Below, one piece after another: positions 1 through 64,000 of a stretch of DNA of 64,000 nt; position 1 is the first letter of the stretch, and every line of letters begins with the position of its first letter. Under the pieces are notes generated by a model that ran no database searches, was not told the origin of the DNA, and saw nothing but the letters and a program-made list of their open reading frames with translations. The DNA comes from a virus: the IMG/VR virus record IMGVR_UViG_3300032070_000632, positions 1-64,000 of that record. The stretch is one strand, 5' to 3'. Both the position numbers and the translations under genes were made by a program.

Positions 1-18
1 CGCTTTTTGTATTCGCTC

Positions 19-172
19 GGGCGTGGCGGAATTCCCCCCAAACCCCCCTTCCGCCACGCCCTCGCTGGGACGATTCTTTTTTTCGGCGGAATTTGAGGCT
101 GTATTTTGCAAAGCAAAATGCGCCACCAAAGGAGATGTTGCCCTTGACCCACCCAACCCATTCGCGGGCAAC
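19..172. repeat. Three consecutive hairpin-forming inverted repeats
   Basis: This gene-free left end is visibly richer in G and C than what follows. It holds three perfect inverted repeats: a 13-bp stem at 19-31/49-61 (GGGCGTGGCGGAA), a 7-bp stem at 103-109/113-119 (ATTTTGC) and a 7-bp stem at 137-143/166-172 (GTTGCCC). The first could be the terminator or an intergenic repeat belonging to a gene off the left edge. No coding region is convincing in bases 1-286. A poor TATAAT at 267-272 may serve the next gene. Confidence 0.5.
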
Positions 173-15356: not shown

Positions 15357-15363
15357 AATAAAT

Positions 15364-15777: not shown

Positions 15778-15800
15778 AAATTAATCGCTGATATTTTTAT

Positions 15801-15836
15801 GAACTGCCGGACAGTCTGTTGTGGCTGTCTTTTTTT
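15801..15836 (+). promoter_or_regulatory. Leader motif with terminator-like hairpin before terminase
   Basis: GAACTGC-CG-GACAGTC (15801-15816) is followed by a GACAG/CTGTC stem (15810-15814/15825-15829) and seven T bases, ending 8 nt before the terminase ATG. The same 16-nt motif recurs at 22532 and 36852, each time ahead of a terminator-like structure at the start of a late module. A conventional promoter upstream is not clear here. Confidence 0.6.
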
Positions 15837-15844
15837 AAAAAAAT

Positions 15845-25585: not shown

Positions 25586-26635
25586 ATGTTTAACAGACAA
25601 CCGCCTTTATTGCAAAAAGCTACTTTGACCAGAGTGGTGAATAAGATAAAAATCTCATCTCACCTGGGCGAAGAGTTTTTGCCGTTTAAACCGGTGCCAA
25701 CTGAGAAAACAATTTGGGATGTCGTGGAAGCGGACATGGGAATGGCGAAATTTGTGGCTCCTGACGCTGAATCGCCTTTGGTTGATAAACGAAAAATCGA
25801 CCAGGTGATTGCGACTATCGCTTCCATTCGTGAAAAGGAAAGATTCATCGAATCCGACCTTCGAGCGATTAGAGAAGCGGGTGAGCTTCCGATAGTGGAG
25901 GATTCTCCGACACTAATGAACGCTCTCAAGACCCAAGCCGAACAGCGGCTTCGTGATTCTCTCACACGGCTTAAAAACAGGGTAGCGAACAGACTAGAGT
26001 GGATGCGATGGCAAGCGATGTTAGGTACCGTCAGCTATGACGATGGCGATGTAATATTCTCCGTCGATTATGGCATCCCAGCGGCTAATAAAGTTACCTT
26101 ATCAGGTACGGCCGTCTGGAGCGATACTACCAACGCCGACCCGCTAAAGAATATCAATGACTGGATTGATACCTACATTGATAATCAAAGCGGTCTTGCT
26201 CCGACCCGCATGGTCATGTCCCGCAAATCATTAGGTTACATTGCTCAAAACGCCAAAATTCGGGATTTATTGAAGTATAACAACAACATTAATCCGGAAG
26301 TTTTTGGTTCGCCGAAGATGGCCCAACAGTTGATTCTCAACTTGACGGACATCGTTAAAATTCACGTATATGATTCTTTTTATGAAGATGCCTCAGGGAC
26401 CTCTTTGAGATACCTGGCTCAAAATAAAATTATCATGCTGCCTGAACCAGTAACGAACGGCGAAACTTTGGGCGACGTTGCCGATGGTCCTCATCCGCAC
26501 AACAACTACAAACCAGGTCTTTATACTTGGACTGAAACCAAGAAAGACCCCTATACAACGTTTGTGGGAGTTGGCCGTGAGTGCTTCCCTCGTATTTTCC
26601 ATCCAGATTGGATTTTTGTGGCAACCGTATATTAA
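25586..26635 (+). CDS. Major capsid protein (lambda gpE-like)
   Basis: The protein has 349 residues. The helical E-loop region (SLTRLKNRVANRLEWMRWQAM), the central RMVMSRKSLGYIAQN block and the C-terminal YTWTETKKDPYTTFVGVGRECFP... segment fit gpE-type HK97-fold capsid proteins. It is 5 nt after the decoration gene, and structured RNA follows the stop. Confidence 0.93.
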   Translation: MFNRQPPLLQKATLTRVVNKIKISSHLGEEFLPFKPVPTEKTIWDVVEADMGMAKFVAPDAESPLVDKRKIDQVIATIASIREKERFIESDLRAIREAGELPIVEDSPTLMNALKTQAEQRLRDSLTRLKNRVANRLEWMRWQAMLGTVSYDDGDVIFSVDYGIPAANKVTLSGTAVWSDTTNADPLKNINDWIDTYIDNQSGLAPTRMVMSRKSLGYIAQNAKIRDLLKYNNNINPEVFGSPKMAQQLILNLTDIVKIHVYDSFYEDASGTSLRYLAQNKIIMLPEPVTNGETLGDVADGPHPHNNYKPGLYTWTETKKDPYTTFVGVGRECFPRIFHPDWIFVATVY

Positions 26636-27566: not shown

Positions 27567-28637
27567 ATGAACATTTTATTTATAGCGGATGACAAAAAAG
27601 GCACCGGCTTCTATCGCATGATGATGCCGGCCAATGAAATCCGCAAAGCCAACATGGCCAACGTGAGACTTTGTTTCGCCGTTGACCAAAATGACATTCA
27701 ATGGGCAGACATCGTGGTAGTCCAGCGGGCACACCATCCGTCAATGTTTGAAATGTTTGACTGGGCGAAATCAATCGGCAAAGTAATGGTGTACGAAATT
27801 GATGATTACTTGCAGGGAGTTGACCCGACCAATCCGGCCTATCGCAGTTGGACGCCGGCCGGACCGCACTTACAGCGGGCACTGGCTTTGATGGAAAAAG
27901 CGGATGCGATGACGGTGACTACCGACCGGTTGCAGAGAGAATATGCTCCTTGGAATAAAAACATTTTCGTCATCCCGAATTTTCTGGATAAAACCTTGTT
28001 TCCGCCGGCGAAAAAAGTTTATAAAGATAAATTAATTAGAATTGGTTATACCGGATTTTCTTCCCACCAGAAAGACTTGGAATTGATTGATGATATAATG
28101 ACGAAGATATGCGAGAAGTATCCGGAAGTGAGATTTAAGGTAATGGGAATAATTCCCGAGCATGCGTTCAAAAGAATACCGCAATATAATTATAAATATC
28201 GGGGAGTAAAGATAAAATCGCAGTTGGAATATATTAGCGGAACGGACATTACGGCTTACTTTTATAAGTTGGCCGACCAAGGATGGGATATTGGATTGGC
28301 ACCATTGATTGATAATTCATTCAATGCCTGCAAATCAGACCTGAAAATAAAGGAATATGGCGCATTGAGCATACCGGTCGTGGCTTCCAACGTCTATCCA
28401 TACCAGAAAGCGATAAAACAGGGATACAACGGCTTTTTAGCCTCCACGGGCAAGGAATGGTACGAAGCGATAGAAAAATTGATTCTGGACAAAAAATTGA
28501 GACAGGAAATAGGCAATAACAACCTGGTATGGGTGAATGAAAACGGTTGGATTCAGGATAATGTCGCTGTCTGGATTAATACTTATCAACATATTTATGA
28601 TAATATGTTAAAAGCGACGGGAATAACGCCGCAATAA
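27567..28637 (+). CDS. Glycosyltransferase (GT-B, family 4-like)
   Basis: The protein has 356 residues. The opening ADDKKGTGFYRMMMPANEI, the central donor-site block (RIGYTGFSSHQKDLELIDDI) and the C-terminal KIKEYGALSIPVVAS with a Glu in the donor-binding helix fit GT-B glycosyltransferases. Position among virion genes suggests a substrate that is a structural protein or an attached glycan, rather than host cell wall. Confidence 0.87.
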   Translation: MNILFIADDKKGTGFYRMMMPANEIRKANMANVRLCFAVDQNDIQWADIVVVQRAHHPSMFEMFDWAKSIGKVMVYEIDDYLQGVDPTNPAYRSWTPAGPHLQRALALMEKADAMTVTTDRLQREYAPWNKNIFVIPNFLDKTLFPPAKKVYKDKLIRIGYTGFSSHQKDLELIDDIMTKICEKYPEVRFKVMGIIPEHAFKRIPQYNYKYRGVKIKSQLEYISGTDITAYFYKLADQGWDIGLAPLIDNSFNACKSDLKIKEYGALSIPVVASNVYPYQKAIKQGYNGFLASTGKEWYEAIEKLILDKKLRQEIGNNNLVWVNENGWIQDNVAVWINTYQHIYDNMLKATGITPQ

Positions 28638-30356: not shown

Positions 30357-32192
30357 ATGGCAAATCCTGGTACAACAGGCGTTAATACGATAGTAGGCAC
30401 AAAAACTTGGGTTAATACTAACAATGTTAAAGTAAGCGATAATGTTTATGCAAATGCTTATACTGGCGCGAATTGGAGTAATATTTTTACCTACACGACT
30501 AATGCGACTGCTACTTTAGTAACTGCTTGGATAGGAGCGGCAATTAATACCTCACCAACCATTCCAGCTGTGATAAATGGACAAGCAACTATAGTCAATG
30601 CCAATTCCACTTTTAGGGCAAATACTGCTTTAACTAATTGTTTTATAAACGCTAATGTAGCATTTGTGTCTAATATTATGACAGATGCTTTTAATGCGTG
30701 CAGTAATTTAGTAGGCGTAGATGCTATCCCAAACAGTGTGACGAGTATGGATTCTACTTTCTATTCCTGCACCAATCTTGTCAACGCTCCGACTATCGGT
30801 GTGAATGTGACGAGTATGTATTTTACTTTCTATTCCTGCACCAATCTTGTCAACGCTCCGACTATTCCTAACAGTGTGACGAATATGGATTTTACTTTCC
30901 GGTCCTGCACCAATCTTGTCAACGCTCCGACTATTCCTAACAGTGTGACGAATATGGATTCTACTTTCCGGTCCTGCACCAATCTTGTCAACGCTCCGAC
31001 TATTCCTAACAGTGTGACGAATATGGATTCTACTTTCGCTTCCTGCTCCGGCATTGTCAACGCTCCGACTATCGGTGTGAATGTGACGAGTATGACTTAT
31101 ACTTTCTATTCCTGCACCAATCTTGTCAACGCTCCGACTATTCCTAACAGTGTGACGAGTATGGATTCTACTTTCTATTCCTGCACCAATCTTGTCAACG
31201 CTCCGACTATCGGTGTGAATGTGACGAGTATGACTTATACTTTCTATTCCTGCACCAATCTTGTCAACGCTCCGACTATTCCTAACAGTGTGACGAGTAT
31301 GGATTCTACTTTCTATTCCTGCACCAATCTTGTCAACGCTCCGACTATCGGTGTGAATGTGACGAGTATGTATTTTACTTTCTATTCCTGCACCAATCTT
31401 GTCAACGCTCCGACTATTCCTAACAGTGTGACGAATATGGATTTTACTTTCCGGTCCTGCACCAATCTTGTCAACGCTCCGACTATTCCTAACAGTGTGA
31501 CGAATATGGATTCTACTTTCCGGTCCTGCACCAATCTTGTCAACGCTCCGACTATTCCTAACAGTGTGACGAATATGGATTCTACTTTCGCTTCCTGCTC
31601 CGGCATTGTCAACGCTCCGACTATCGGTGTGAATGTGACGAGTATGACTTATACTTTCTATTCCTGCACCAATCTTGTCAACGCTCCGACTATTCCTAAC
31701 AGTGTGACGAGTATGGATTCTACTTTCTATTCCTGCACCAATCTTGTCAACGCTCCGACTATCGGTGTGAATGTGACGAGTATGACTTATACTTTCTATT
31801 CCTGCACCAATCTTGTCAACGCTCCGACTATTCCTAACAGTGTGACGAGTATGGCTTATACTTTTAATTCCTGCACCAATCTTGTCAACGCTCCGACTAT
31901 TCCTAACAGTGTGACGAATATGGCTTATACTTTCGCTTCCTGCTCCGGCATTGTCAATGCTCCGACTATCGGTGTGAATGTGACGAGTATGGGTTATACT
32001 TTCTATTTCTGCACCAACCTCGCTGGTAATATAACCATAGTAAATGCCAATGTAACCAATTTTACTGCGTGTTTTACTGGATGTAATGCTTCTATTGCTA
32101 AAACATTAAGATGTCCTACTGGTTCAGCAAGTTATAATTTAGCGATAAATGTTTGCAATGGAATAAACGGCGTTACTGTCGTAGCTTATTAA
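30357..32192 (+). CDS. BspA/DUF285-like repeat surface protein
   Basis: The protein has 611 residues. An N-terminal cap of about 120 residues is followed by 19 tandem 23-residue units of the form TIPNSVTxMxxTFxSCTNLVNAP or TIGVNVTSM..., then a short C-terminal cap (MTYTF/GYTFYFCTNL to NVCNGINGV). This is the BspA-type leucine-rich-repeat pattern (DUF285-like) that forms a long curved solenoid. It is unusual inside a phage virion gene block and probably serves as a fiber or adhesin that can change length by repeat recombination. Confidence 0.82.
   Translation: MANPGTTGVNTIVGTKTWVNTNNVKVSDNVYANAYTGANWSNIFTYTTNATATLVTAWIGAAINTSPTIPAVINGQATIVNANSTFRANTALTNCFINANVAFVSNIMTDAFNACSNLVGVDAIPNSVTSMDSTFYSCTNLVNAPTIGVNVTSMYFTFYSCTNLVNAPTIPNSVTNMDFTFRSCTNLVNAPTIPNSVTNMDSTFRSCTNLVNAPTIPNSVTNMDSTFASCSGIVNAPTIGVNVTSMTYTFYSCTNLVNAPTIPNSVTSMDSTFYSCTNLVNAPTIGVNVTSMTYTFYSCTNLVNAPTIPNSVTSMDSTFYSCTNLVNAPTIGVNVTSMYFTFYSCTNLVNAPTIPNSVTNMDFTFRSCTNLVNAPTIPNSVTNMDSTFRSCTNLVNAPTIPNSVTNMDSTFASCSGIVNAPTIGVNVTSMTYTFYSCTNLVNAPTIPNSVTSMDSTFYSCTNLVNAPTIGVNVTSMTYTFYSCTNLVNAPTIPNSVTSMAYTFNSCTNLVNAPTIPNSVTNMAYTFASCSGIVNAPTIGVNVTSMGYTFYFCTNLAGNITIVNANVTNFTACFTGCNASIAKTLRCPTGSASYNLAINVCNGINGVTVVAY
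30723..32033 (+). repeat. Nineteen 69-bp tandem repeats with a 552-bp duplication
   Basis: Units of 69 bp run in frame through the BspA-like gene. Units 2-8 recur as units 10-16, an offset of 552 bp (8 units), with near-identical DNA. The copies are therefore recent, produced by unequal exchange or slippage. Mirror-image antisense frames at 30830-31060 and 31382-31612 are by-products of this. Confidence 0.9.
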
Positions 32193-32576: not shown

Positions 32577-34142
32577 ATGAATGAAGACAAAAAAGAATTG
32601 CCCGATGGTTGGTTTCACGACGGCGATATAAAACAATATCGTTCTTTAGCAGAGCAAGTGCCTAATAACGGGTCAATTATTGAATTAGGCGTATGGAAAG
32701 GCAGAAGTTTATGCTCTATTGCCGACATAATAAATAGAAAAAATTTAAAAGTATTCGCGGTAGATACTTTTAAAGGTACGCCGGGCGAAGATAAAGAACA
32801 TAAAGAAGCCAAAAAAATAGATTTGCGGAAAGTTTTTGAAGAGAATATGAGAAAATTTGGCATTGCCGTTCAGATTTACGCAATGACTACGGATGAAGCG
32901 GCGGAAAAGATAACAGATAAGTTTGATTTAATTTTTATAGATGCCGACCATTCTTTTGAAGCTATCACTAAAGATTTAGCTAACTGGGTTCCTAAATGCA
33001 AAGGCATTATAGCGGGGCACGATTATGAAAAAGACAGCATTAAAAAAGCAGTTGATAAAATATTTCCTAATGTTAATTATTTGCATTGTTTCACCGACCC
33101 CGGACGAGGGACAATGTGGTGGAATGATTGTAGAAAAATAACTATGAGCACAAAAAAGTTAGATGTGATTATTCCCGCGTATAAAGCGCAAAATACCATA
33201 GAACGAACTTTGGCTTCTATTGTGATGCAATCCGTGGTGGATAAGATAACTGTTACTATCGTGAATGACGCTGACGGGATTGGCTATGACAAGTTTGTCA
33301 AGCAGTTTGCCGACTATATGGATATTAAAGAAATAACAATGAAAGTTAATGGCGGTCCTGGTGTAGCTCGGCAATACGGGATAGACAATACTATCTCGCC
33401 ATATTTTACCTGCATAGACGCTGACGATACTTTCGCTGGAGCATTTGCTTTAGAAATACTATTAAGGGGCATAGAAGCTAATCCTGGGTATCATACGGTA
33501 GTTGGCAGTTTTGCCGAACAACATAATTTTTTGACTTTTATCAATCATCAGAATGATATGGTTTGGATGTTTGGCAAGTTATACACTAGAACTTTTTGCG
33601 AGAAATATAAAATTAGATTTAACGACACCAGAGCCAATGAAGATAACGGTTTTAACACTATTATCAGATTAGTAAGTTCGCCCGAAGAAAAAGTTATGTT
33701 TTTGCCTGACATAGTTTATTTTTGGCATCATAAAGAAGATTCAATTACCAGAATAAATAACGCCCAGTATTCATACGACCAAAGTTTTTGCGGATATACC
33801 GACAACATGATTTACGCCATTAAGCACGCCAAGAGAATAAAACCGTTTAATAATTACATCGATATGTGGGCAATTCAGACTATGGCGCAATTATATAATT
33901 ATTATTATCAGACTGTTAAAAGAGATCCCAGGTTCACGGAACAAAACTATTCTTATTGCGTTAAATATTATCAGGAAGTTTTTAAGGATATGTATGAAAG
34001 AATGGACAAGTCAAATTTTGATGACATATTCGCTCAGACTTTATCGGAACAAGCCATTAACATGAAGGACAATGTGCCTGATAAAACTATTTATCAGTTT
34101 ATTGAAGAATTAAAAAATTATGGCGGCAGTAACATCATTTAG
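32577..34142 (+). CDS. Methyltransferase-glycosyltransferase fusion
   Basis: The protein has 521 residues. Residues about 1-185 are a class I AdoMet methyltransferase (GSIIELGVWKGRSLCSIADI, DLIFIDADHSFEAI). Residues about 190-480 are a GT-A family 2 glycosyltransferase (LDVIIPAYKAQNTIERTLAS, DADDTF as the metal-binding DxD, EDNGF). The fusion would both add and methylate a sugar. It lies between two repeat proteins in the virion block, so a glycosylated fiber is a natural target. It overlaps the next start by 23 nt. Confidence 0.87.
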   Translation: MNEDKKELPDGWFHDGDIKQYRSLAEQVPNNGSIIELGVWKGRSLCSIADIINRKNLKVFAVDTFKGTPGEDKEHKEAKKIDLRKVFEENMRKFGIAVQIYAMTTDEAAEKITDKFDLIFIDADHSFEAITKDLANWVPKCKGIIAGHDYEKDSIKKAVDKIFPNVNYLHCFTDPGRGTMWWNDCRKITMSTKKLDVIIPAYKAQNTIERTLASIVMQSVVDKITVTIVNDADGIGYDKFVKQFADYMDIKEITMKVNGGPGVARQYGIDNTISPYFTCIDADDTFAGAFALEILLRGIEANPGYHTVVGSFAEQHNFLTFINHQNDMVWMFGKLYTRTFCEKYKIRFNDTRANEDNGFNTIIRLVSSPEEKVMFLPDIVYFWHHKEDSITRINNAQYSYDQSFCGYTDNMIYAIKHAKRIKPFNNYIDMWAIQTMAQLYNYYYQTVKRDPRFTEQNYSYCVKYYQEVFKDMYERMDKSNFDDIFAQTLSEQAINMKDNVPDKTIYQFIEELKNYGGSNII

Positions 34143-36896: not shown

Positions 36897-37211
36897 ATGA
36901 CAGAGGAAAAGAAAAAAGAAAAAGAGGCATTTTCCTTAATTCTAATGAAAGACTGGGAAAAATGGCTTAATATTAAAGACCCAGACTTAGCGGAAGCATT
37001 AGACGATTTCTCCGGCAGTTTGAATATGGAGATGCGGAAGATGACGGCGATAATTTGCAAAACATTGGAAGACGCCAGCATTAAAGATTCGCCGAAACAA
37101 GAGGTAAAAGATGCCATCAATAAATGCTGGTATGACATTAATTCGCATCAAAAAGTTGGTAATAGCAAATTATGCTTTATCATAAAAAAATATTTAAAAA
37201 ATGATATATGA
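36897..37211 (+). CDS. Small helical protein at start of tail module
   Basis: The protein has 104 residues, charged and mostly helical. It overlaps the next gene by 4 nt. First gene of the connector/tail operon. Function is unknown. Confidence 0.55.
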   Translation: MTEEKKKEKEAFSLILMKDWEKWLNIKDPDLAEALDDFSGSLNMEMRKMTAIICKTLEDASIKDSPKQEVKDAINKCWYDINSHQKVGNSKLCFIIKKYLKNDI

Positions 37212-37987
37212 TAGACCAAGCACGACAAAATAGTAATGAACGCCTTGAGGTAATGTTTAAAGCATTATCCGGCGGCGTTTATACCAACATCACTCCCGAC
37301 ATCTGCACTCTTTTATTAAGAAATTTAGACACTAATTTAATTATTGCTTCCGGCTTGGCGGTTAATTTAGGCCAGCCTTGCTATTATGACCTAACTCCAC
37401 TCTTAACTGACGTTTTAGGTCAATACGAGGCTGTCTGGACGGCGGAGATAGGCACGCAGGAAATAGAACATGTCCAGTATTATGAAGTGATAAAACGTAA
37501 AACCAGATACGCCAACGTGAAAGATGTCATCGAGAGAACGAAAGAAATAGAATTTCCCTCGGGATTGGACATCACTAGATATATCATCGGAGCCGAAGAT
37601 GACATTGATTTATATTTAGGCGAAGTTTATTCCGTGCCGATAGATTTAAAAAGCACTTCACTCACTAAAAAGGATATTCAAACGATTGAGGATTTGGCGG
37701 CGGATTTGTCCACCGGTCGGCTGATAAACGGCTTATCGATGGCGAGCGGTTCCCGCAACGAAGTAGCGAGTGATATTGAAAAAACCGCTTGGAAAAAATT
37801 AATGGACATCAAAGATGGAAAATTGGAATTAGAAAGCGTTACTAAACGTTCAACCGCCACCCGTAAAGATTTGCCGAAAGTCAGCGAGGACCATCCTGAT
37901 TATATTGATAATGAAATTGATGATAATAGTTTTTTCGGTAATACTGATAAAATCGGGTCGCAGAATATTTGGCGGACGCCATACTAA
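37208..37987 (+). CDS. Head-tail connector candidate
   Basis: The protein has 259 residues, mixed helical, with an N-terminal helical third and a disordered acidic C-terminus. It is placed immediately before a gpG-like morphogenesis protein and a tail terminator candidate. Order suggests the head-tail adaptor. The sequence itself gives no specific motif. Confidence 0.5.
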   Translation: MIDQARQNSNERLEVMFKALSGGVYTNITPDICTLLLRNLDTNLIIASGLAVNLGQPCYYDLTPLLTDVLGQYEAVWTAEIGTQEIEHVQYYEVIKRKTRYANVKDVIERTKEIEFPSGLDITRYIIGAEDDIDLYLGEVYSVPIDLKSTSLTKKDIQTIEDLAADLSTGRLINGLSMASGSRNEVASDIEKTAWKKLMDIKDGKLELESVTKRSTATRKDLPKVSEDHPDYIDNEIDDNSFFGNTDKIGSQNIWRTPY

Positions 37988-37989
37988 TT

Positions 37990-38514
37990 ATGCCCATCCA
38001 AATTGACATAAAAGTTGATGATAGTCAGGTGAGAGGATTGCTGGAGAGAATGGAAAGCATCACCAGCAAAACGGCAAAGTTTTTATCATCTTCGGCCGCG
38101 CCTTACATGCGAGAGAGTTTTCAGAAAAATTTTGAAGCCGAAGGACGACCAAAGTGGCCGGCATTGGCTCCGGCAACGGCGGAATTTAGGCGTAAGGGCA
38201 GAGAACAGGGCTGGTGGGACGCCGGTGATACTTCTCCCATTCTCCACCGCACCGGAGATTTAATGAAAATGGTTGTTTCCACCGAAGAAAAAATAGAGGA
38301 AAATACCGGAGAAATAGTAATGGAAATGAATCCGGAAGATATGCTGGGAAAATTTATCGGTTCGCCACATGGCGGAGCAACATCATATTTAAAACATCAG
38401 TTGGGCGAAGGAAAATTAAAACAGAGACAGATGGTGCTTTTCCAAAACGAAGACATTGAATGGCTAAGCAAACGCTATCAAGATTTTATAACTGAAACAA
38501 TTCAAAATGATTGA
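37990..38514 (+). CDS. Virion morphogenesis protein (Mu gpG-like/tail completion)
   Basis: The protein has 174 residues from ATG 37990. FEAEGRPKWPALAPATAEFRRK...LHRTGDLMKMV is the signature of the phage virion morphogenesis family (HK97 gp10/Mu gpG-like), which completes the tail or head-tail joint. It overlaps the next gene by 8 nt. Confidence 0.82.
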   Translation: MPIQIDIKVDDSQVRGLLERMESITSKTAKFLSSSAAPYMRESFQKNFEAEGRPKWPALAPATAEFRRKGREQGWWDAGDTSPILHRTGDLMKMVVSTEEKIEENTGEIVMEMNPEDMLGKFIGSPHGGATSYLKHQLGEGKLKQRQMVLFQNEDIEWLSKRYQDFITETIQND

Positions 38515-55492: not shown

Positions 55493-55521
55493 TTGACTTT
55501 TTTTAAAAGATGGTGTATAAT
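55493..55521 (+). promoter_or_regulatory. Plus-strand promoter, apparently leaderless
   Basis: TTGACT (55493-55498) and TATAAT (55516-55521), 17-bp spacer. The ATG at 55528 is where transcription should begin, so the message would have little or no 5' leader. It appears to be the only promoter for the whole 55.5-64 kb operon. Confidence 0.8.
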
Positions 55522-55527
55522 GACAAT

Positions 55528-56463
55528 ATGGTATCAGGCAAAGCAAAAGCAAAAGATAAAATAGATTTCAACGACAAGAAGCTTATCAGTTATACCCGCT
55601 TCTCGTCGTTTATGAATTGTCCCTATAAATTCAGTCTAAAATATAAAAAAGGGATAAGACCGGAAAAAGAATCTGTTAAATATTCTTTTGGAAAAGCCAT
55701 GCACGCCGCATTGGCTTATTTTTATGAAACGAAATGCACGGAAGAAATGGCGATTGAATATTTTTCTTTAATTTGGGAGGAGATGACTAAAAGCGAAGCG
55801 ATTGATTATGGCACTAAAAAAGTGACTAAGGCGATGGTTAAAGAAGACCCAGGACTAGCTGATGAAGAGCATGTGGCTATCACGCCAGCTTATTATCTTG
55901 ATTTGGGGGCAAGGATGCTGATGAGTTATTTTGAAACTTATCGGGGAGAAAAAATAGAGGTTGTCGGGGTGGAACAATCATTTACTTGTCCGTTTAAAAA
56001 TCCGGACACTAATTATAAAAACAGAAGATGGGAATTAACCGGCGTGATTGATTTATTGTTAAAAAATGAAGATGGAACTTATGAATTTTGGGACCATAAA
56101 ATGATGGGGAAAAAAGTCAGTGCCGGCGTATTTCAACTTTCTCATCAGGTTCCGGCTTATATTTTAGGGGCCGCTTTTTTGCTTCAAATTCCCATTGATA
56201 AAATTAAAAGATGCGTTTTTAATATTATTTATAAAACCGGAGATTTAGAATGTGAACGGATAGAGGTGACGAGGACTAAGGAAGAAATGACCATGTTTTT
56301 TAAACAATTGACGCATGTCGCTAAGGCGATTGATAATGATAAAATTTTTCAAAATTTTAGTTTTGCCTGTGCTTCTTGCGAATATCTTAATTATTGTTTG
56401 GGGAAAAAGGATAAATATCTCGATACGATATTTTCCGATGCCGAAGACCCCGATGAATTATAA
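55528..56463 (+). CDS. PD-(D/E)XK nuclease (RecB/Cas4-like)
   Basis: The protein has 311 residues from ATG 55528. An upstream in-frame ATG falls within the -10 region and cannot be used by this promoter. SYTRFSSFMNCPYKFSLKYK, AMHAALAYF, the catalytic TGVIDLLL and EFWDHKM (Asp, Asp/Glu, Lys) and a C-terminal Cys set (CASCEYLNYC, with an earlier CPYKF) fit RecB-family nucleases with an iron-sulfur cluster. It probably processes DNA ends in phage recombination. Confidence 0.85.
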   Translation: MVSGKAKAKDKIDFNDKKLISYTRFSSFMNCPYKFSLKYKKGIRPEKESVKYSFGKAMHAALAYFYETKCTEEMAIEYFSLIWEEMTKSEAIDYGTKKVTKAMVKEDPGLADEEHVAITPAYYLDLGARMLMSYFETYRGEKIEVVGVEQSFTCPFKNPDTNYKNRRWELTGVIDLLLKNEDGTYEFWDHKMMGKKVSAGVFQLSHQVPAYILGAAFLLQIPIDKIKRCVFNIIYKTGDLECERIEVTRTKEEMTMFFKQLTHVAKAIDNDKIFQNFSFACASCEYLNYCLGKKDKYLDTIFSDAEDPDEL

Positions 56464-56465
56464 AT

Positions 56466-56756
56466 ATGTTATATTATACCCCGCCAACAAACGAACAATT
56501 TAATGAGGTTAAAGAAAAATCTATTCAACTTTGGAAAGAGATTGATACTGATAATGACAAATATGGATATGCCAGCAGTAAAATAAACAGAATCAAAGAC
56601 CTTGAAAATATTAGTGATAATTTTATGGTTATGGTGGCGATGTTTAGTATTAATAATCAAGCCACACTTGCCAGTAAATTAAAAGAAGAAACAAGGACGG
56701 CAATAAAAGAAAGAATGATTGAAGACAGAAATTTTGGTAAAGAATTTGTTTTTTAA
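56466..56756 (+). CDS. Small helical protein, unknown
   Basis: The protein has 96 residues, charged and helical, 2 nt after the nuclease gene. No motif is recognised. Confidence 0.55.
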   Translation: MLYYTPPTNEQFNEVKEKSIQLWKEIDTDNDKYGYASSKINRIKDLENISDNFMVMVAMFSINNQATLASKLKEETRTAIKERMIEDRNFGKEFVF

Positions 56757-56764
56757 TTTTTTAT

Positions 56765-57169
56765 ATGGAAAGAATAACTTTAAATTCAGTATCAGTCGGC
56801 AAACAGGTCAGAAGAGTTCCTCATAACAATAGCAATATGCGGATGCACTGGACTGTAAAAAATCAATGGAAACACGCCTGGCAGAAAGAAATTGAAATGC
56901 AGATAATGATTAATCGCAAGAAATTAGGAAAGTTACCCTTGATAAAACCGGAAATAAAATTTATATTTTATATGTGCAAACCATATGACTTGGATGGGGC
57001 ATATAATGCGGCCAAACCGTTGTTGGACAGTTTAAAAATTTGGAAAAGCAAAAATAATCCTGGTATGGGAATAATTACGGATGATGATGATAAAAATTTA
57101 TCTTATTGCGTTTTGACAAAGAAAGTTTATAGCGTAAAAGAGGAGCGAGTAGAATTAATCATTAATTAA
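56765..57169 (+). CDS. RusA-like Holliday junction resolvase
   Basis: The protein has 134 residues. PYDLDGAYNAAKPLLDSLK and GIITDDDDKNL carry the Asp cluster of RusA-type crossover junction endonucleases. It would resolve branched DNA before packaging. Position after the RecB-like nuclease supports a recombination module. Confidence 0.82.
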   Translation: MERITLNSVSVGKQVRRVPHNNSNMRMHWTVKNQWKHAWQKEIEMQIMINRKKLGKLPLIKPEIKFIFYMCKPYDLDGAYNAAKPLLDSLKIWKSKNNPGMGIITDDDDKNLSYCVLTKKVYSVKEERVELIIN

Positions 57170-57175: not shown

Positions 57176-57979
57176 ATGCCAAGCGAAACTGTTAAACAGT
57201 CAGTGGGAATAATCGGTATGGGTGTATTAGGCCGTGCGATTAAGAATTATTATAAAAATGCTCTCGTATTTGACATCAATCCGGAAATCGATTCCAATGA
57301 TTTTAATTTGGTCGCCCAACGAGACTGGGTTTTTGTTTGCGTCCCCACTCCATCAACCGCAGATGGAAAAATTGATTTATCGGCGATAGAGGAAACGATA
57401 GAAAGATTGAGCAAGACGGCTATTTATGAAAAAACTAAAATAGTCATTAAATCAACCGTCGTTCCTGGCACCGCCCAACGATTGCAGGACCAGTATCCGC
57501 ATTTACAGATTATTTCCTGTCCGGAATTTTTAACGGAGAACACGGCTTGTGAAGATTTTGCTTATCCGGACAAAAATATAATCGGTACTACCAGGCAATA
57601 CCCGCGGCTCGGAGCAGACCTGGCCAGAATATTGCCGGTGGCACCGGTTTTAATTATGACTTCAACGGAAGCGGAAATGGTTAAGTATGCCATTAATTCT
57701 TATTACGCCATGAAAGTTATTTTTGCGAATGAATTGTATGATTTATGCGAGGCATTGGATGCAAATTATAATGCCGTGCATCGAGGATTGGTGGCTGATA
57801 AGAGAATTAATGATTCTCATTTTTCTATCTTTCACGGCACGCATCGTGGTTTCGGCGGAAAATGTTTAACAAAAGATACTATGGCTATTGTTGAAAAGGG
57901 CAAAGAGCTTGGAATTGATATGGGTCTGTTAAAACAGGTTTTAGAATTAAATAAAAAATTTATTAAGATAACTTTTTAA
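57176..57979 (+). CDS. Nucleotide-sugar dehydrogenase, C-terminally short
   Basis: The protein has 267 residues. The NAD-binding start VGIIGMGVLGRAI, VFVCVPTPST, and the catalytic block GGKCLTKD with the active-site Cys fit the UDP-glucose/GDP-mannose 6-dehydrogenase family. The usual C-terminal NDP-sugar-binding domain (about 130 residues) is missing. First of the sugar genes, 6 nt after the resolvase gene. The substrate is unknown, and a short phage form may use a different acceptor. Confidence 0.85.
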   Translation: MPSETVKQSVGIIGMGVLGRAIKNYYKNALVFDINPEIDSNDFNLVAQRDWVFVCVPTPSTADGKIDLSAIEETIERLSKTAIYEKTKIVIKSTVVPGTAQRLQDQYPHLQIISCPEFLTENTACEDFAYPDKNIIGTTRQYPRLGADLARILPVAPVLIMTSTEAEMVKYAINSYYAMKVIFANELYDLCEALDANYNAVHRGLVADKRINDSHFSIFHGTHRGFGGKCLTKDTMAIVEKGKELGIDMGLLKQVLELNKKFIKITF

Positions 57980-57995
57980 ATATTAATAAAAATAT

Positions 57996-58238
57996 ATGGG
58001 AATACCATCGATTAAAATAGTGGAGAGTGAAGAAAATGAGAAAGAAAAAATACTTTCTCATGGCAACATTCACTCTATCAGAAAAGATATTGACGGAATA
58101 ATCAAGAGAGTGAAAGAAATACAATTATCAACTCCCGATTCACGCCAGAATGACCTTGCTTATCAGCGGACGATAGAACACGCCATTGTCGGGCTGATTG
58201 AAGCTAAAATGTGGCTCGGCGAATATATAGTGTTATGA
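57996..58238 (+). CDS. Acb2-like helical protein (candidate cyclic-nucleotide sponge)
   Basis: The protein has 80 residues. A helix (IRKDIDGIIKRVKEI) leads to TPDSRQNDLAYQRTIEHAI and AKMWLGEYI, resembling the PDSRE.SLA.T.L..A.MWA..AI pattern of the Acb2/Tad1-hairpin family. Those proteins bind CBASS or Thoeris signal molecules and block host defence. The match is from memory of the family pattern and is not proof. It overlaps the next start by 4 nt. Confidence 0.45.
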   Translation: MGIPSIKIVESEENEKEKILSHGNIHSIRKDIDGIIKRVKEIQLSTPDSRQNDLAYQRTIEHAIVGLIEAKMWLGEYIVL

Positions 58239-58909
58239 TTGAAGTATGCTTCTGCGTTTATAAAAGATGGCAGCGTGTGCCGGATATTTTGCAAAATTTA
58301 TTAAACCAAACAAATCAAGATTTTAAAGTTAATATTTGGAATAACAGCGGTCAGAATCTGGATGTCAGCAAATTTCCCGCCGGTCGGATTCAAGTGATTG
58401 ATTTGGGATGCAATCTTGGTTCGGCCGCCAGATTTAAAATAGTGCCACGGACAATGGGAAATCCAATAATATTTTTTGATGATGATGAAATTTTAGATAA
58501 TGATTTTGTTGATTATTATTGGAAACAATATCAGAAATTCGGACCAGATTATATTTTAGGATGGTTCACGAGAATTTTTAACCAAGAACATTATTGGCAC
58601 TCAATTCCTTATTCTATTTATGGCACGGAGGTTGATTATGTCGGTACTGGCGGAATGATATTAGACCGGAAAATTTTTGACCAGGAACAGTCTTTAGCGG
58701 ATATACCGGAAGAGTTTAGCCGAGTCGAAGATTTGTATTTAGGTTATATTGCCAGAATGAAATATGGCATGAAATTATCGGCGATTGAGAAAAAATGTTC
58801 TATTATGGTAGATGTCCATGACCAATTCCGGTCGTTGACTGATTATAAACAAAAAACCTTTTTATTCATGCGACAGAAAGGGTGGAAAATTTTAAAAGAT
58901 AAAATATGA
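58235..58909 (+). CDS. GT-A family 2 glycosyltransferase
   Basis: The protein has 224 residues from ATG 58235. NLLNQTNQDFKVNIWNNSG, the metal-binding FFDDDEI and VGTGGMILDRKIF with EEFSRVEDLYLG fit GT-A glycosyltransferases. It would add a sugar to a growing glycan. Overlaps both neighbours by 4 nt. Confidence 0.85.
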   Translation: MIEVCFCVYKRWQRVPDILQNLLNQTNQDFKVNIWNNSGQNLDVSKFPAGRIQVIDLGCNLGSAARFKIVPRTMGNPIIFFDDDEILDNDFVDYYWKQYQKFGPDYILGWFTRIFNQEHYWHSIPYSIYGTEVDYVGTGGMILDRKIFDQEQSLADIPEEFSRVEDLYLGYIARMKYGMKLSAIEKKCSIMVDVHDQFRSLTDYKQKTFLFMRQKGWKILKDKI

Positions 58910-59493
58910 ATATTGAAAAAGAAAAAGAATATTGGAATAAAAGATACGCCAGCAATAAAACCAGTGGTGGCGGTTCATATGGAGAAGAGGCTGAATTTAA
59001 GTTAAAATCAATTAATGAATTTATTATCGATAAAGAAAAAATAAGAACAATAGTTGATGTTGGTTGCGGGGACTTCAATATTGGTTCGCAATTCATTAAA
59101 TTTTTTCCCAACGCCAAATATTTAGGATTGGATGTTTCTAACGAGATAATCAAAAGACATCAAAAAAAATACATATCAGATAATTTACGGTTTGACGTAA
59201 TTAACGAAAATAGAGGATTGATTTTCTTCTGTCCGGATATTCTTATTTGTTTTGATATGTTGTTTCATGTGATGGATGACGAAACTTATAATAATATTTT
59301 AGAAAATTTAAAAAAATCATGGAGAAACTATCTTTTAATTGCTACCTATAACGATACCAGATTGGATATGCCGTATGATTTGAATTATATAAAAAAGAGA
59401 AAATTTGACCCTAAATTTTTTGCTGAGGAATGGAAAGAAATTTTAATCCCTTTCTACGATGGAAATAAATCATTATATTTTTTCACTAAATAA
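58906..59493 (+). CDS. Class I methyltransferase
   Basis: The protein has 195 residues. IVDVGCGDFNIGSQ is the AdoMet-binding motif I, and LICFDMLFHVMDDETY is the post-motif region. Small stand-alone methyltransferases in glycan operons commonly O-methylate sugars or their substituents. The substrate is unknown. Confidence 0.82.
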   Translation: MNIEKEKEYWNKRYASNKTSGGGSYGEEAEFKLKSINEFIIDKEKIRTIVDVGCGDFNIGSQFIKFFPNAKYLGLDVSNEIIKRHQKKYISDNLRFDVINENRGLIFFCPDILICFDMLFHVMDDETYNNILENLKKSWRNYLLIATYNDTRLDMPYDLNYIKKRKFDPKFFAEEWKEILIPFYDGNKSLYFFTK

Positions 59494-59496
59494 TTT

Positions 59497-60090
59497 ATGC
59501 CCATAGCCAGACCAGATGTGATACCGTTCGTTTGCGAATGGTTTAGCCAAAAAAGCATTAAAGAAATAAAAAGCGTTTTGGATGTGGGGAGCGGTTTTGG
59601 CTTGTGGGGATTTTTAGCCAGGCAATATATTCAGATTTGGCAGCCAGGAATAAAAGAAGATGACTACATAAATTTTAAAAATAAGATGAGAGTTGATGCG
59701 ATTGAGATAGTTGATTTTTACGTTACCGACATCCAGCGTCAAATTTACAATAACATTTATTGTGCCGACATGCGGATAAACTTGCCATCGTTAAGCTGGT
59801 ATGACCTTATAATCTGCGGCGATATTTTAGAACATATCAATTTTACTGACGGACTAAAACTTTTAGAGGAAATGAGAAGGCGGTCAAGATGGGTAATAAT
59901 AACTATGCCTGATTATTTTGCCAGAGGAAATGAGATAATGGGGCAGATAAGCGATTTGCACGAATATGTCTGGAAAGACAATGATTTCCCCGACCGGCCA
60001 GTTGTTACCCATATTAACAAACAAAAAGTAATTATTTACGAAGATTCTAATTATGCCGACAAAAGAAAACTCTTTGAAAAATCTCGTTGA
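59497..60090 (+). CDS. Class I methyltransferase
   Basis: The protein has 197 residues. SVLDVGSGFGLWGFLARQY is motif I and DLIICGDILEHINF the catalytic-side motif. Its last 38 nt are shared with the LicD-like gene in another frame. Together with its neighbour it gives the operon two distinct methyl transfers. Confidence 0.82.
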   Translation: MPIARPDVIPFVCEWFSQKSIKEIKSVLDVGSGFGLWGFLARQYIQIWQPGIKEDDYINFKNKMRVDAIEIVDFYVTDIQRQIYNNIYCADMRINLPSLSWYDLIICGDILEHINFTDGLKLLEEMRRRSRWVIITMPDYFARGNEIMGQISDLHEYVWKDNDFPDRPVVTHINKQKVIIYEDSNYADKRKLFEKSR

Positions 60091-60673
60091 TTTTAAAAAA
60101 GTAATGGACGAACTAAAGATATTTTTTTGGTTAGATTCCGGCACTTTACTCGGGGCTTATCGTGATAAAAATATTATTACCGGCGACGAGGATGACAGCG
60201 ATATTTGCATGTGGAAAGACAATGCGGTCCGCAGTCCTGAATTTCTAAAAAAATTAAGAGAAGCCGGATTTTCCATTCTGCATGATTGGCGGTTTGTCAA
60301 TGCCACTTCCGAAGGAATTGGCATTAAAAGGGATGGCAATAAGATTGATATTGTCATGATGCACCGCAAGAAAAACGAACATGGCGATGTGGCGTTTTAT
60401 TTGTCCAGAAATTTTAGCGGACAAATGGGTTCAATGCCCTATTATGCCTTTGTCTTCCCTGGAAAACTGTATGATGAATTTAATGAAATAGAATTAGGCG
60501 GAGTTAAATATAATTGTCCTAAAGATGTTGAGGGATATTTAGTGGCTCGCTACGGCCAAAATTGGAATATTCCAATTTTACGTGGACAGGGTTGGAATCC
60601 TATCGACCCGTCTAATAATCCTTGTCATCGCACTAACTGGAAATATGACGACCCAAAAGCAATGCTCTACTAG
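60053..60673 (+). CDS. LicD-like phospho-group transferase
   Basis: The protein has 206 residues. FFWLDSGTLLGAYRDKN followed by DEDDSDICMW is the nucleotidyltransferase-fold GS...DxD signature of LicD/fukutin proteins, with IDIVMM giving the third acid. LicD enzymes transfer phosphocholine, phosphoethanolamine or related groups from a CDP/CMP carrier to glycans. Next to a phosphonate pathway, transfer of a phosphonate from its CMP ester is the natural proposal. Confidence 0.83.
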   Translation: MPTKENSLKNLVDFKKVMDELKIFFWLDSGTLLGAYRDKNIITGDEDDSDICMWKDNAVRSPEFLKKLREAGFSILHDWRFVNATSEGIGIKRDGNKIDIVMMHRKKNEHGDVAFYLSRNFSGQMGSMPYYAFVFPGKLYDEFNEIELGGVKYNCPKDVEGYLVARYGQNWNIPILRGQGWNPIDPSNNPCHRTNWKYDDPKAMLY

Positions 60674-61514
60674 GGTTGATTCCCTTTATGAGCTTTTACA
60701 AAAAAATAAATTTGTCAGAGTGCTTGAGGCCCATAATGGCTTGTCTGGTTTAATTGTGGAAAATTCAGACTTTGATGCCATTTGGGAGAGTTCATTGACT
60801 GATTCGGCTTCTAAGGGCTTGCCGGACATCGAACTGGTTAGTATGGATTCCAGGATGGAAACTATCAGGCAGATTATTGACGTGACCACCAAGCCGATTA
60901 TTGTTGATGGCGACACCGGCGGCCAGATTGACCATTTTCCGTATTGGGTAAATAAAATGGAGAAGGCTGGCGTATCAGCCGTGATTATTGAAGATAAAGC
61001 ATTTCCTAAAAGGAATAGTCTGGATGAAAGTGCCCAACATCAGTTAGAAGAAGTGGATATTTTTGCTAAAAAGATTGAAGCCGGAGTAAAAGCGAAGATG
61101 AACGATAAATTTATGATTATCGCCCGTTTGGAAAGTTTGATTGCCCAGCATTCAGTTTATGAAGCGTTAATCAGAGCCGAGGCATTTTTGAAAGCTGGCG
61201 TGGACGGGATTATGATTCATTCTAAAGAAAAAATTTCTGCCACGGAAGTTTTTGAGTTTGCAAGAAGATTTAAAATGATGTCAAAAAAACCATTGGTTTG
61301 CGTACCTACCACTTATAATGATATTTTTGAACAACAATTACAGGAGGCGGGATTTAATATAGTTATTCATGCCAACCACTTATTGCGGGCATCTTTTAAA
61401 GCAATGGAGAAAGCAGCGGAAAAAATTTCCGTCAATCACCGCAGTAAGGAATTGGATGATGATATTTCTTCGGTGAAAGAAATATTTAACATTGTCGGTT
61501 ATGATAAATTATAA
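60645..61514 (+). CDS. aepX: Phosphoenolpyruvate phosphomutase
   Basis: The protein has 289 residues from ATG 60645. The isocitrate-lyase-like barrel carries IVDGDTGGQIDHF and IEDKAFPKRNSL; EDK-xxxK-NS is diagnostic of true PEP mutases and separates them from lyase relatives. It turns PEP into phosphonopyruvate, the committed C-P bond-forming step. Overlaps the LicD-like gene by 29 nt and the decarboxylase by 14 nt. Confidence 0.94.
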   Translation: MTTQKQCSTRVDSLYELLQKNKFVRVLEAHNGLSGLIVENSDFDAIWESSLTDSASKGLPDIELVSMDSRMETIRQIIDVTTKPIIVDGDTGGQIDHFPYWVNKMEKAGVSAVIIEDKAFPKRNSLDESAQHQLEEVDIFAKKIEAGVKAKMNDKFMIIARLESLIAQHSVYEALIRAEAFLKAGVDGIMIHSKEKISATEVFEFARRFKMMSKKPLVCVPTTYNDIFEQQLQEAGFNIVIHANHLLRASFKAMEKAAEKISVNHRSKELDDDISSVKEIFNIVGYDKL

Positions 61515-62682
61515 AAAAATTATTGAGTGTTTAAAGGAAAATGAAATTAAATTTATTACTGGCGTTCCAGACAGTACGCTTAAGCACATAATCTGTGCTA
61601 TCGCCGACGATAAAGATTTTCAACACGTTCCAGCCACTAATGAAGGAGAGGCCGTGGCCTTGGCAGCCGGATATTTTTTTGCCACAGGAAAAGTTCCCAT
61701 GGTATATATGCAAAATGATGGATTATTTAATGCTGCTAATGCTTTAGCTTCGTTATGCAGTTTTAATGTTTATGACGTCCCGATGCTTTTAATGATTGGC
61801 AAACGTGGCATTGAAGGCGATGAGCCACAACATTTAATGGCAGGAGAAATGTTGGAAGATTTTTTAAAATTATTACATATCCCCTGTAATTATCAACATA
61901 TAGAAAATAATGAAAATATTGAAGATGAAATTTTGGAAGACCTTAGTTCAGCAATAATTTACGCTCGCCGAGAAATACGTCCGGCAGCCATTATTTTTCA
62001 AAAAGGAAGTATCTATGATTTAGAAGAAAAAAATAAAATTGGAACGACGGAACCATCAATGCGGGAGAAGTGCCTTGATATTTTATTGAACTATATCGGT
62101 ATAGGTATAGTTGTTTCCACTACTGGTTTAACTTCTCGTGAATTGTATGAATTGAGGAAAAAAAGAGGTGAAAAAACAGATGATATTTTAATGGTTGGTT
62201 CTATGGGATGTGCTTCGGCGATTGGTTTAGGCGTAGCACTTCAAGAAAATAACGATTATCAGCACGATAAGTCGAGTTACCGCAATGTTTATGTTCTGGA
62301 TGGTGATGGAGCGGCTTTAATGATGTTGGGAAATATGGCTACTATCGGTTATTATCTGCCGGAAAATTTAGTGCATATTATTTTTGACAATGGCGGTTAT
62401 GTCAGCACGGGCAAACAACAACGGATAGGTGATAGAATTAATTGGCAAATGCTCGCCCAGGGATTGGGATATTATACTTTTAAAGAGGTTGACGGCCGAA
62501 GCATGGCTGAAACTAAATGTTTCGGTAAATTGGGTGAAATATTGGATTTTCATAAAATGCCTATGCCGGCATTGATAGTGATTAAAATTGACCAGTCGGT
62601 CCGTGGTGATTTAGGCAGACCAAAAGATTTAAAGGAAATCAGAAAAAATTTTATGATTAAAATTTTTAACAAAGACATATGA
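61501..62682 (+). CDS. aepY: Phosphonopyruvate decarboxylase
   Basis: The protein has 393 residues. A ThDP-dependent enzyme: the N-terminal Glu region (ATNEGEAVALAAGY) and C-terminal ThDP motif (VLDGDGAALMMLGNMATIG... then DNGGY) are intact, and the length matches the family. It makes the unfavourable mutase step irreversible by decarboxylating phosphonopyruvate to phosphonoacetaldehyde. Confidence 0.94.
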   Translation: MINYKKIIECLKENEIKFITGVPDSTLKHIICAIADDKDFQHVPATNEGEAVALAAGYFFATGKVPMVYMQNDGLFNAANALASLCSFNVYDVPMLLMIGKRGIEGDEPQHLMAGEMLEDFLKLLHIPCNYQHIENNENIEDEILEDLSSAIIYARREIRPAAIIFQKGSIYDLEEKNKIGTTEPSMREKCLDILLNYIGIGIVVSTTGLTSRELYELRKKRGEKTDDILMVGSMGCASAIGLGVALQENNDYQHDKSSYRNVYVLDGDGAALMMLGNMATIGYYLPENLVHIIFDNGGYVSTGKQQRIGDRINWQMLAQGLGYYTFKEVDGRSMAETKCFGKLGEILDFHKMPMPALIVIKIDQSVRGDLGRPKDLKEIRKNFMIKIFNKDI

Positions 62683-63674
62683 TTCTATACGGAGATTTCA
62701 AAGAAAAAATTAAAAAAATAACAAAGAGAGAATTTGGCGTGGAAATGCTGGTTTTAACTAATGATGTTTTTAAAGAATTTATTTTGGAAAATCCTAATGG
62801 GTTGACAGTGCCTGCCAATCCGACTGATAAATTTTTAGATAAAGCCAGAAGTTTCGCCAGCGACCGATTTTATAAAGGACCATTCAAATTTATTGTTTCC
62901 ATCGGCGGCGGGTCGGTAATTGACGTGGGAAAAATATTATCAGTATTATTTGAAATTCCGCACATTGTCGTGCCTACCACCTGCGGAAGCGGAAGCGAAG
63001 CAACTTCCTATGCGGTGATAATAGAAAAAGAAAAAAAGGAAACAATAACTAATAAAGAGTTTTTGCCTAAATATGTGGTTTATGATGAATATTTTTTAAA
63101 AGAAATTGACCATAATAAAGAGGCAATAGCATTAATAGCTGGAGTATTTGATGTATTATGCCATTGCGTTGAATCTTATCTTTCGCCAAAATCAACTCCA
63201 GTAAGTGAAAAATATGTCCATAAGGCGATAAATTTATGGAAAAGATTTTCTTGGCAATGGTTGGATGGACAAAAAAAAGCATCATTGGAAATGTTTGAAG
63301 CGGCATTTTATGCCGGCAAAGCGATTGATATTACGCAGACTGGAATTTGCCATGCTGTTTCTTATCCACTAACAACAAAATATGGCATACCACATGGCTT
63401 GGCGGCCGCATCCATGCTGGCAACTTTAATTTTTTATATCGACCAATTAGATAAAAAAGCGGAAGAAAGATTCTATCAGTTATTTTCCAAAAAAGAAAGA
63501 TACGGATTGCTCGGGTTGATAAGTATTTACTGCAAAATGGAAGAAATGAAAAAACTTTTTAAAAAAATTGATATTGAATATGTTATGAAAGAGGCAAAAA
63601 AATCTTCCAGATTTAAGAATAGTATTTTAAAATTGCCACCTAAATTTATTTATTTTTTCAATTATGTTAAATAG
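62679..63674 (+). CDS. Iron-type alcohol dehydrogenase, likely phosphonoacetaldehyde reductase
   Basis: The protein has 331 residues. IVSIGGGSVIDVGKIL (NAD(P)-binding), PTTCGSGSEATSYAV and metal ligands in FDVLCHCVES, CHAVSYPL and YGIPHGLAA fit the group III metal-dependent alcohol dehydrogenases. After mutase and decarboxylase the expected reaction is phosphonoacetaldehyde to 2-hydroxyethylphosphonate. No transaminase for aminoethylphosphonate is seen, though one could lie right of the window. Confidence 0.88.
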   Translation: MILYGDFKEKIKKITKREFGVEMLVLTNDVFKEFILENPNGLTVPANPTDKFLDKARSFASDRFYKGPFKFIVSIGGGSVIDVGKILSVLFEIPHIVVPTTCGSGSEATSYAVIIEKEKKETITNKEFLPKYVVYDEYFLKEIDHNKEAIALIAGVFDVLCHCVESYLSPKSTPVSEKYVHKAINLWKRFSWQWLDGQKKASLEMFEAAFYAGKAIDITQTGICHAVSYPLTTKYGIPHGLAAASMLATLIFYIDQLDKKAEERFYQLFSKKERYGLLGLISIYCKMEEMKKLFKKIDIEYVMKEAKKSSRFKNSILKLPPKFIYFFNYVK

Positions 63675-64000
63675 AATAGGTTATCTCCCAATGACGGCTG
63701 ATTTGTTGCATGTCGGGCACATTCACGCCATTTCTCAAAGTCTTGTTTTTTGCCGTCATTTAATAATTGGCTTATTAAACGACAAAGCGATTGAAGATTA
63801 TAAAGAAAAACCGCCAGTAATACCATTTAAAGAAAGAAAAGCGATGTTGGAATATGTTTTGCCGTTTTTTTCAAAACATACCGGTCAGACTACCCAAATT
63901 GTTGAACAAGATAATATTGATTTTACCGAAAATTTAAAAAAATATAAACCGGATTGCGTATTGAGCGGGGATGGCTGGCAAGAAGAAGAAAGAAAATCTG
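63664..64000 (+). CDS. HxGH nucleotidyltransferase, runs off the right edge
   Basis: At least 112 residues are visible. PMTADLLHVGHIHAI carries the HxGH motif, and CVLSGDGW is the family's second block, as in ethanolamine/choline-phosphate cytidylyltransferases. In this operon the likely role is making the CMP ester of the phosphonate for the LicD-like transferase. The ATG overlaps the reductase stop by 11 nt. The end is outside the window. Confidence 0.82.
   Translation, partial: MLNRIGYLPMTADLLHVGHIHAISQSLVFCRHLIIGLLNDKAIEDYKEKPPVIPFKERKAMLEYVLPFFSKHTGQTTQIVEQDNIDFTENLKKYKPDCVLSGDGWQEEERKS

Follow-up and report, generated by a model that had tools for sequence, protein, structure and literature searches.

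What would a tailed phage do with a set of genes for making a phosphonate and attaching it to a sugar? The question is raised by a run of 19 open reading frames (ORFs), all on the plus strand and none with an internal stop, at positions 57176–70263 of IMG/VR record IMGVR_UViG_3300032070_000632. The analysed window is the stretch of bases 1–64,000 of this 77,054-bp record, and one numbering is used throughout. A first-pass annotation of the window had described an operon for phosphonate synthesis and glycan decoration and had suggested that the phage places a phosphonoglycan on its virion, its DNA, or the infected cell. That observation has been confirmed and extended, and its interpretation is partly supported. 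We read the locus as a phage-borne phosphonoglycan pathway whose 2-hydroxyethylphosphonate (HEP) glycan most likely sits on the virion, a proposal to which, taken as a whole, we give an even chance. The identities of the enzymes and their location in a phage are supported by sequence and predicted fold, and the HEP chemistry of the operon is likely, being well supported by family comparisons. From these we infer what each enzyme acts on in this phage, which molecule is the acceptor, and how the phage benefits from the modification.

Predicted Phosphonate Chemistry

The pathway would begin with the phosphoenolpyruvate (PEP) mutase PepM (60645..61514), predicted to convert PEP to phosphonopyruvate. 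The protein matches PEP_mutase PF13714 (6e-55) and scores 347 bits against TIGR02320, above the cut-off of 319.6, while the phosphonopyruvate hydrolase model gives only 173 bits against a cut-off of 374 and the lyase equivalog also failed. Its EDKx5NS motif (EDKAFPKRNS) aligns with those of the Mytilus and Streptomyces PEP mutases, whereas the phosphonopyruvate hydrolase 2dua has TS where mutases have NS, and the nearest solved relatives are 5unc and Mytilus PepM. The first-pass annotation had allowed that the enzyme might group with isocitrate-lyase-like hydrolases; with the motif kept and the scores on the mutase side of both cut-offs, it does not. As listed, the mutase ORF starts at a GTG at 60582, and the ATG at 60645, which makes the gene overlap that for LicD by 29 nt, is the more likely start. 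Phosphonopyruvate decarboxylase (Ppd, 61492..62682), which passes the TIGR03297 cut-off narrowly (313.0 vs 312.5 bits), would then yield phosphonoacetaldehyde. The next enzyme belongs to the Fe-dependent alcohol dehydrogenase (Fe-ADH) family (62679..63674; PF00465 1.7e-20), retains the Asp/His/His/His metal ligands in an alignment to 1vhd, and is predicted to reduce phosphonoacetaldehyde to HEP; its score against the PsrA family TIGR03405 is 96 bits, below the cut-off of 424.

Activation and transfer would follow. An HxGH protein (63664–64101, cut by the window end at 64000) carries the motif as HVGH, matches CTP_transf_like at 1e-7 to 2e-8, and is matched best in the PDB by the part of Fom1 that serves as HEP cytidylyltransferase (5x3d, 3e-15); it would join HEP and cytidine triphosphate (CTP) to give HEP linked to cytidine monophosphate (CMP-HEP). 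From this donor, the LicD-type transferase (60053..60673; PF04991 1.3e-8) would move HEP to a sugar of the glycan. The LicD signature GTLLG...R...D.D.D is present in the protein, and G30, L33, G34, R37, D45, and D50 are invariant in 16 viral LicDs. An AlphaFold2 model, folded with 15 viral relatives, has a mean predicted local distance difference test (pLDDT) score of 79, and its best PDB match is FKRP, including the complexes with CMP and with ribitol linked to cytidine diphosphate (CDP-ribitol), at an E value of 1e-6; the model therefore fits transfer from a CMP-linked donor. The HEP route and the LicD transfer proposed in the first-pass annotation thus find support in both family and fold. 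Sets of a mutase, decarboxylase, reductase, cytidylyltransferase, and LicD-type protein have been linked to cell-surface glycans (PMC6697681).

These enzymes are embedded among genes for glycan assembly. The operon opens with a compact UDP-sugar dehydrogenase (57176..57979; PF00984 1.8e-23, PF03721 2.4e-20, phrog_9148 4e-45) that has the NAD-binding and central domains only, with no match to the UDP-binding C-terminal domain, and that resembles proteins on phage contigs L006 and G010 by phmmer. There follow an 80-aa ORF with no family matches (57996..58238), a glycosyltransferase of family 2 (GT2, 58211..58909; PF00535 7e-8), an S-adenosylmethionine-dependent methyltransferase (58906..59493; PF13649 7e-7, phrog_3382 3e-19), a probable class I methyltransferase (59497..60090), LicD, and PepM. 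Ppd, the Fe-ADH, and the cytidylyltransferase come next, then an FkbM methyltransferase, a PIG-L deacetylase, and a 94-aa protein with one transmembrane (TM) segment, and the last part consists of a GT2, a 60-aa ORF, two further GT2s, a probable GT-B protein (67982–68890, judged by eye only), and a GT4. The glycan genes thus number four GT2s, two of GT-B type (one of them the probable one), three methyltransferases, one PIG-L deacetylase, and one LicD. All the enzymes named in the first-pass annotation are present with matches far above chance (LicD 1e-8, GT2 7e-8, UDP-sugar dehydrogenase 2e-23, Fe-ADH 2e-20), with the qualification that, of its two methyltransferases, the second is recognised by the motifs DVGSGFG and CGDILEHI read from the sequence and has no Pfam match. 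Its operon without a gap holds within the window, where genes mostly overlap and gaps are at most 16 nt. Over the full run, neighbouring genes overlap or lie no more than 21 nt apart, with the exception of one gap of 156 nt at 65531–65688. The extent of 57176–64000 had to be revised, since the operon runs on to 70263 and there adds the FkbM methyltransferase, the PIG-L deacetylase, three GT2s, the probable GT-B protein, and the GT4. In the mechanism that we propose, soluble glycosyltransferases would assemble the glycan in the cytoplasm and the methyltransferases and deacetylase would trim it.

Phage Origin

The DNA of the operon is firmly of phage origin and is no host capsule locus. The first and last 127 bases of the record are identical (an exact match of 1..127 to 76928–77054), and the record is therefore a whole phage genome, either circularly closed or assembled with terminal redundancy. 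It encodes a portal, head protease, major capsid protein, tail tube, tape measure, DnaB helicase, and exonuclease. Replication and recombination genes of the phage lie to the left of the operon; to its right, a tyrosine recombinase/integrase gene (70214–71032) on the opposite strand converges with it, and further genes lie beyond. Codon usage in the operon resembles that of the structural genes, with a correlation of relative synonymous codon usage of r 0.92. The assignment of the operon to the phage, made earlier from the window, is borne out by the terminal repeat and by these genes beyond the operon, and a crossing from phage into a host capsule locus, which had been named as the observation that would count against it, is not found in the assembled sequence of this complete genome, which has phage genes on both flanks of the operon. 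The recombination nucleases described at the start of the operon correspond to a phage exonuclease, a small ORF, and a RusA-like ORF directly upstream (55510..57169, plus strand); the exonuclease is confirmed (phrog_1218 5e-27), whereas the RusA-like ORF has no match to a hidden Markov model.

Recurrence in Other Phages

A search of viral genomes for PepM, Ppd, and LicD neighbourhoods, suggested in the first-pass annotation, revealed that the pathway recurs in phage contigs and that the window operon is not unique. The survey used an alignment-based scan; a single-protein scan had returned nothing because its patterns fell on variable stretches. PepM-family genes were found on 24 IMG/VR contigs, including L029, whose protein is methylisocitrate-lyase-like (EDQ...CGH) and was not counted as a mutase. 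Besides the window record, 23 contigs have mutase-like genes, 22 of them together with a decarboxylase gene. Of the 24 contigs, 22 have Ppd, 20 an HxGH cytidylyltransferase (in many cases as a fusion with PepM), 17 Fe-ADH, and 10 LicD; four have a CDP-alcohol phosphotransferase, and four the PhnW-type aminotransferase of the 2-aminoethylphosphonate (AEP) branch. A terminase was found on ten of the contigs (one match weak) and gp23 on two, and at least ten of the 23 have one or the other. True-mutase candidates in a collection of phage records were limited to Vibrio phage Va2 and two gut contigs, the GenBank "Bacteriophage sp." records MT837901 (L003) and MT836947 (L004), which carry a cytidylyltransferase–PepM protein with Ppd, look bacterial, and were not counted.

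The PepM tree requires at least four changes between viruses and cells. The window PepM falls with those of G002/L007 and G012/L017 in a virus-only clade (Shimodaira–Hasegawa-like approximate likelihood ratio test, SH-aLRT, 95), and in another viral clade, of eight rows, the motif differs and mostly reads EDN or QDD. Complete phosphonate pathways (HEP and AEP) may have been gained independently in several unrelated lineages of tailed phages for virion glycans with C–P bonds that resist phosphatases, a class of coat new to description; we hold this broader claim at slightly below even. As a separate observation, the PepM of a T4-like phage (L018:9995-10891) has the Mytilus enzyme as its tree neighbour, with 59% identity in the kept columns and support of 100. 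A second type of cassette, seen in L120 (L120:8111-8863), L022, and L026, combines PepM, Fe-ADH, and a cytidylyltransferase with a CDP-alcohol phosphotransferase and multi-TM proteins and is perhaps a phosphonolipid route.

Where these cassettes lie bears on what they decorate. In G012, the capsid gene (4715–5659) is followed by the cassette (6583–18175) and an SU10-type neck adaptor (18200–18910), and G002 has the same order, with its connector called by position only. One strand of G016 carries the protease and capsid genes, the cassette, a head–tail adaptor, and the tape measure. In the T4-like L018/G013, genes for PepM, Ppd, a methyltransferase, a MobA-type nucleotidyltransferase, and an aminotransferase precede those for a gp21-like protease and a gp23-like capsid protein, such that the L018 cassette, of AEP type, stands directly upstream of gp21 and gp23. 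The complete phage MW202801 has no PepM; among phages, it has the closest relative of the window GT4, and its glycan cluster sits between the capsid and stabilization protein genes. The presence of phosphonate or glycan cassettes inside the head modules of several unrelated phages is the main argument for the virion as acceptor. It is an argument from gene order, which, among the virion, DNA, or cell of the first-pass annotation, favours the virion and proves nothing about site or purpose.

The window phage has a glycan island of its own in the head module. Its major capsid protein gene (25586..26635; phrog_29 7e-66, PF03864 8e-38) is closely followed by a GT4 gene (27567..28637; phrog_7162 8e-46, PF00534), relatives of which adjoin the capsid gene in G002, G012, and MW202801. 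Between the capsid gene, ending at 26635, and the head–tail adaptor, starting at 37208, there are also a BspA-type leucine-rich repeat protein rich in Asn, Ser, and Thr (30357–32192), a fused methyltransferase (Methyltransf_24) and GT2 (32577..34142; PF13578 7e-16, PF00535 2e-17), and an 899-aa protein (34120–36819) made up of dozens of repeats of ~20 residues (ISSLARIEKT..K.IQSK). The adaptor and Neck1 genes (37208..38514; phrog_195 1.5e-5, phrog_26 9e-12) close the island and are on the plus strand, as are the capsid, GT4, and fusion genes. The 899-aa protein is a possible head fibre and glycan acceptor. More generally, the most likely acceptor would be a virion protein, either the capsid or one of the head–neck proteins encoded beside the GT4 and methyltransferase–GT2 genes at 27.5–34.1 kb, and adsorption or recognition would be changed by the resulting coat of charged phosphonate.

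Proposed Site of Decoration

If the chemistry is as predicted, the odds lean modestly toward the virion as acceptor. Several points weigh against the proposal. The GT4 and methyltransferase–GT2 genes are in the head module, but the phosphonate genes of the window phage lie outside it, between exonuclease and integrase, and a site between such genes near an integrase is a frequent place for lysogenic conversion genes. The operon has no predicted multi-TM flippase, polymerase, or lipid-carrier protein and no genes for lipid-linked export (Wzx/Wzy, PglC/PglL), its products being soluble enzymes apart from the 94-aa one-TM protein; this prediction is a simple hydropathy scan, and the missing functions could come from lipid carriers of the host. 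On contigs G017, G020, and G021 there are genes for a CDP-alcohol phosphotransferase and for membrane proteins, and at least in some phages the target may thus be lipids or the envelope. On the chemical side, the Fe-ADH is a predicted phosphonoacetaldehyde reductase by family membership, and the substrates of the cytidylyltransferase and of LicD are those predicted from their relatives.

Were CMP-HEP used to decorate an envelope glycan of the infected or lysogenic cell, other phages might be blocked or recognition of the host changed. The role proposed for cellular pepM–LicD clusters is decoration of the cell surface (PMC6697681, PMC8931226), and such remodelling would suit both the convergent integrase-like gene and the multi-TM proteins of the three contigs just named. 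However, none of the products predicted from the window operon is a flippase, a lipid-carrier glycosyltransferase, or a multi-TM protein, and thus there is nothing like the GtrA flippase and membrane GtrB/GtrC of a lysogenic-conversion gtr cluster; in relatives the genes are found among late head genes. We judge the host envelope unlikely as the target, yet it stays a serious alternative because the operon abuts the integrase and because of the CDP-alcohol phosphotransferases and membrane proteins of G017, G020, and G021. Sugars and HEP might also be placed on modified bases of the phage DNA and block restriction. In the part of PMC12619734 that cites Pyle 2024, phage glycosyltransferase clusters are described as hypermodifying DNA, and DNA methyltransferase genes are present in the window phage; apart from its having glycosyltransferases and methyltransferases, nothing speaks positively for decoration of DNA. 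The relatives' cassettes sit with head genes rather than replication genes, the record yielded no thymidylate-synthase homologue, and a TET/JBP search of it found no match, although the positive control of that search gave none either. This reading of the operon appears improbable.

PepM and Ppd are also used for secreted natural products, and the operon could be cargo that supplies a small-molecule phosphonate, whether for the phosphorus economy of host or phage or as an inhibitor. A free metabolite would leave unexplained why LicD and six glycosyltransferase-type genes share the operon, and cytidylyl activation points to transfer, which makes such cargo very improbable. A join of a phage contig to a host capsule or phosphonoglycan locus during assembly is scarcely credible. 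Such clusters are common in bacteria and the two "Bacteriophage sp." records do look bacterial, but the exact 127-bp terminal repeat, the phage genes on both sides of the operon, and a virus-only PepM clade shared with phages whose cassette lies inside the head module all argue against a chimera.

Comparison with Known Systems

Among the closest parallels to the window operon are the bacterial phosphonoglycan (Pnt) clusters (Rice 2019, PMC6697681), which likewise combine a PEP mutase that has the EDKx5NS motif with cytidylyl activation, LicD, and nearby glycosyltransferases. PepM, Ppd, cytidylyltransferase, transferase, and glycosyltransferases, the gene set of such clusters, occur together in the window operon. 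The Pnt clusters are cellular, serve cell-surface glycans, and mostly use AEP with a MobA-type PntC, whereas the window operon is in a phage, follows the HEP branch, and has a separate HxGH gene. The fosfomycin pathway of Fom1, a cytidylyltransferase–PepM fusion, likewise has PepM, Ppd, a reductase, and a CTP:HEP cytidylyltransferase, the last being the match to 5x3d. That pathway leads to a small-molecule antibiotic; its later enzymes were not noted in the window, where LicD and glycosyltransferases are found instead. PepM also stands beside glycan assembly genes in the phosphonoglycoprotein clusters of Prochlorococcus and SAR11, which, unlike the window operon, contain PglC, Wzx, and PglL (PMC8931226).

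Among viruses, the mycobacteriophage Corndog has genes for methyltransferases and glycosyltransferases that lie between those for portal and protease, and they were proposed by its authors to modify the capsid (PMC4351075). Mycobacteriophages are reported to bear glycans on the capsid and the tail tube (Freeman 2023, as cited in PMC12619734). The likeness is in glycosyltransferase and methyltransferase genes inside the head module (PMC4351075); the difference is that no phosphonate genes are described there and that the window phage keeps only part of its glycan genes in the head module. Vibrio phage Va2 (MW073017), which is in culture, has a gene annotated as PEP mutase and another that resembles a thiamine pyrophosphate-dependent decarboxylase. 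Its mutase (L005:7890-9194) is divergent and long-branched, with EDKx6NS and a C-terminal part unmatched by PF13714, and no LicD was noted nearby. The Borg elements of Methanoperedens are extrachromosomal and have a predicted PepM–cytidylyltransferase fusion among glycan genes, but they are huge archaeal elements rather than tailed phages (PMC12660748).

A search of the open-access literature for PepM, Ppd, and HEP in phages found no description of such a pathway, in agreement with the first-pass annotation, which knew of no phage with the full set. The single parts are known; the papers searched contain no account of their combination in tailed phages, where it recurs in more than one lineage. 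Phosphonate synthesis has so far been regarded as something that cells do, and nearly all accounts of the pathway come from cells. In a set of 50,697 phage records, Va2 is the one cultured phage with a mutase-like gene near a decarboxylase-like gene. This may be the reason that the trait has escaped notice, and Va2 offers one strain for experimental work. Cells have been hypothesised to coat themselves with phosphonates against phages (PMC8931226). If our reading is true, phages with the same chemistry reverse that picture, in that the virus may imitate the coat, hide it, or turn it to its own use; viruses would also be a route by which C–P chemistry passes from host to host, and perhaps a source of dissolved phosphonate.

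Other Features of the Record

Searches of the window record with PF03237 and phrog_2 gave no terminase match. The gene at 7250–8941 matches phrog_2666; HerA/Zot ATPases match it too, and because of this the phage call is not based on it. Directly upstream of the portal gene, a 1400-aa ORF (15845–20047) contains intein splicing, Hint, LAGLIDADG, and HNH domains and is probably an intein-interrupted terminase or similar gene; pieces of it searched separately gave no terminase match. Bacteroidota-type promoters are no more frequent in the record than expected by chance. A Shine–Dalgarno signal is absent across the whole record (4/69 starts vs 2.6 expected), an absence that hints at the host group; it is absent as well in G002, G012, and L018 and present in G016 and G010.

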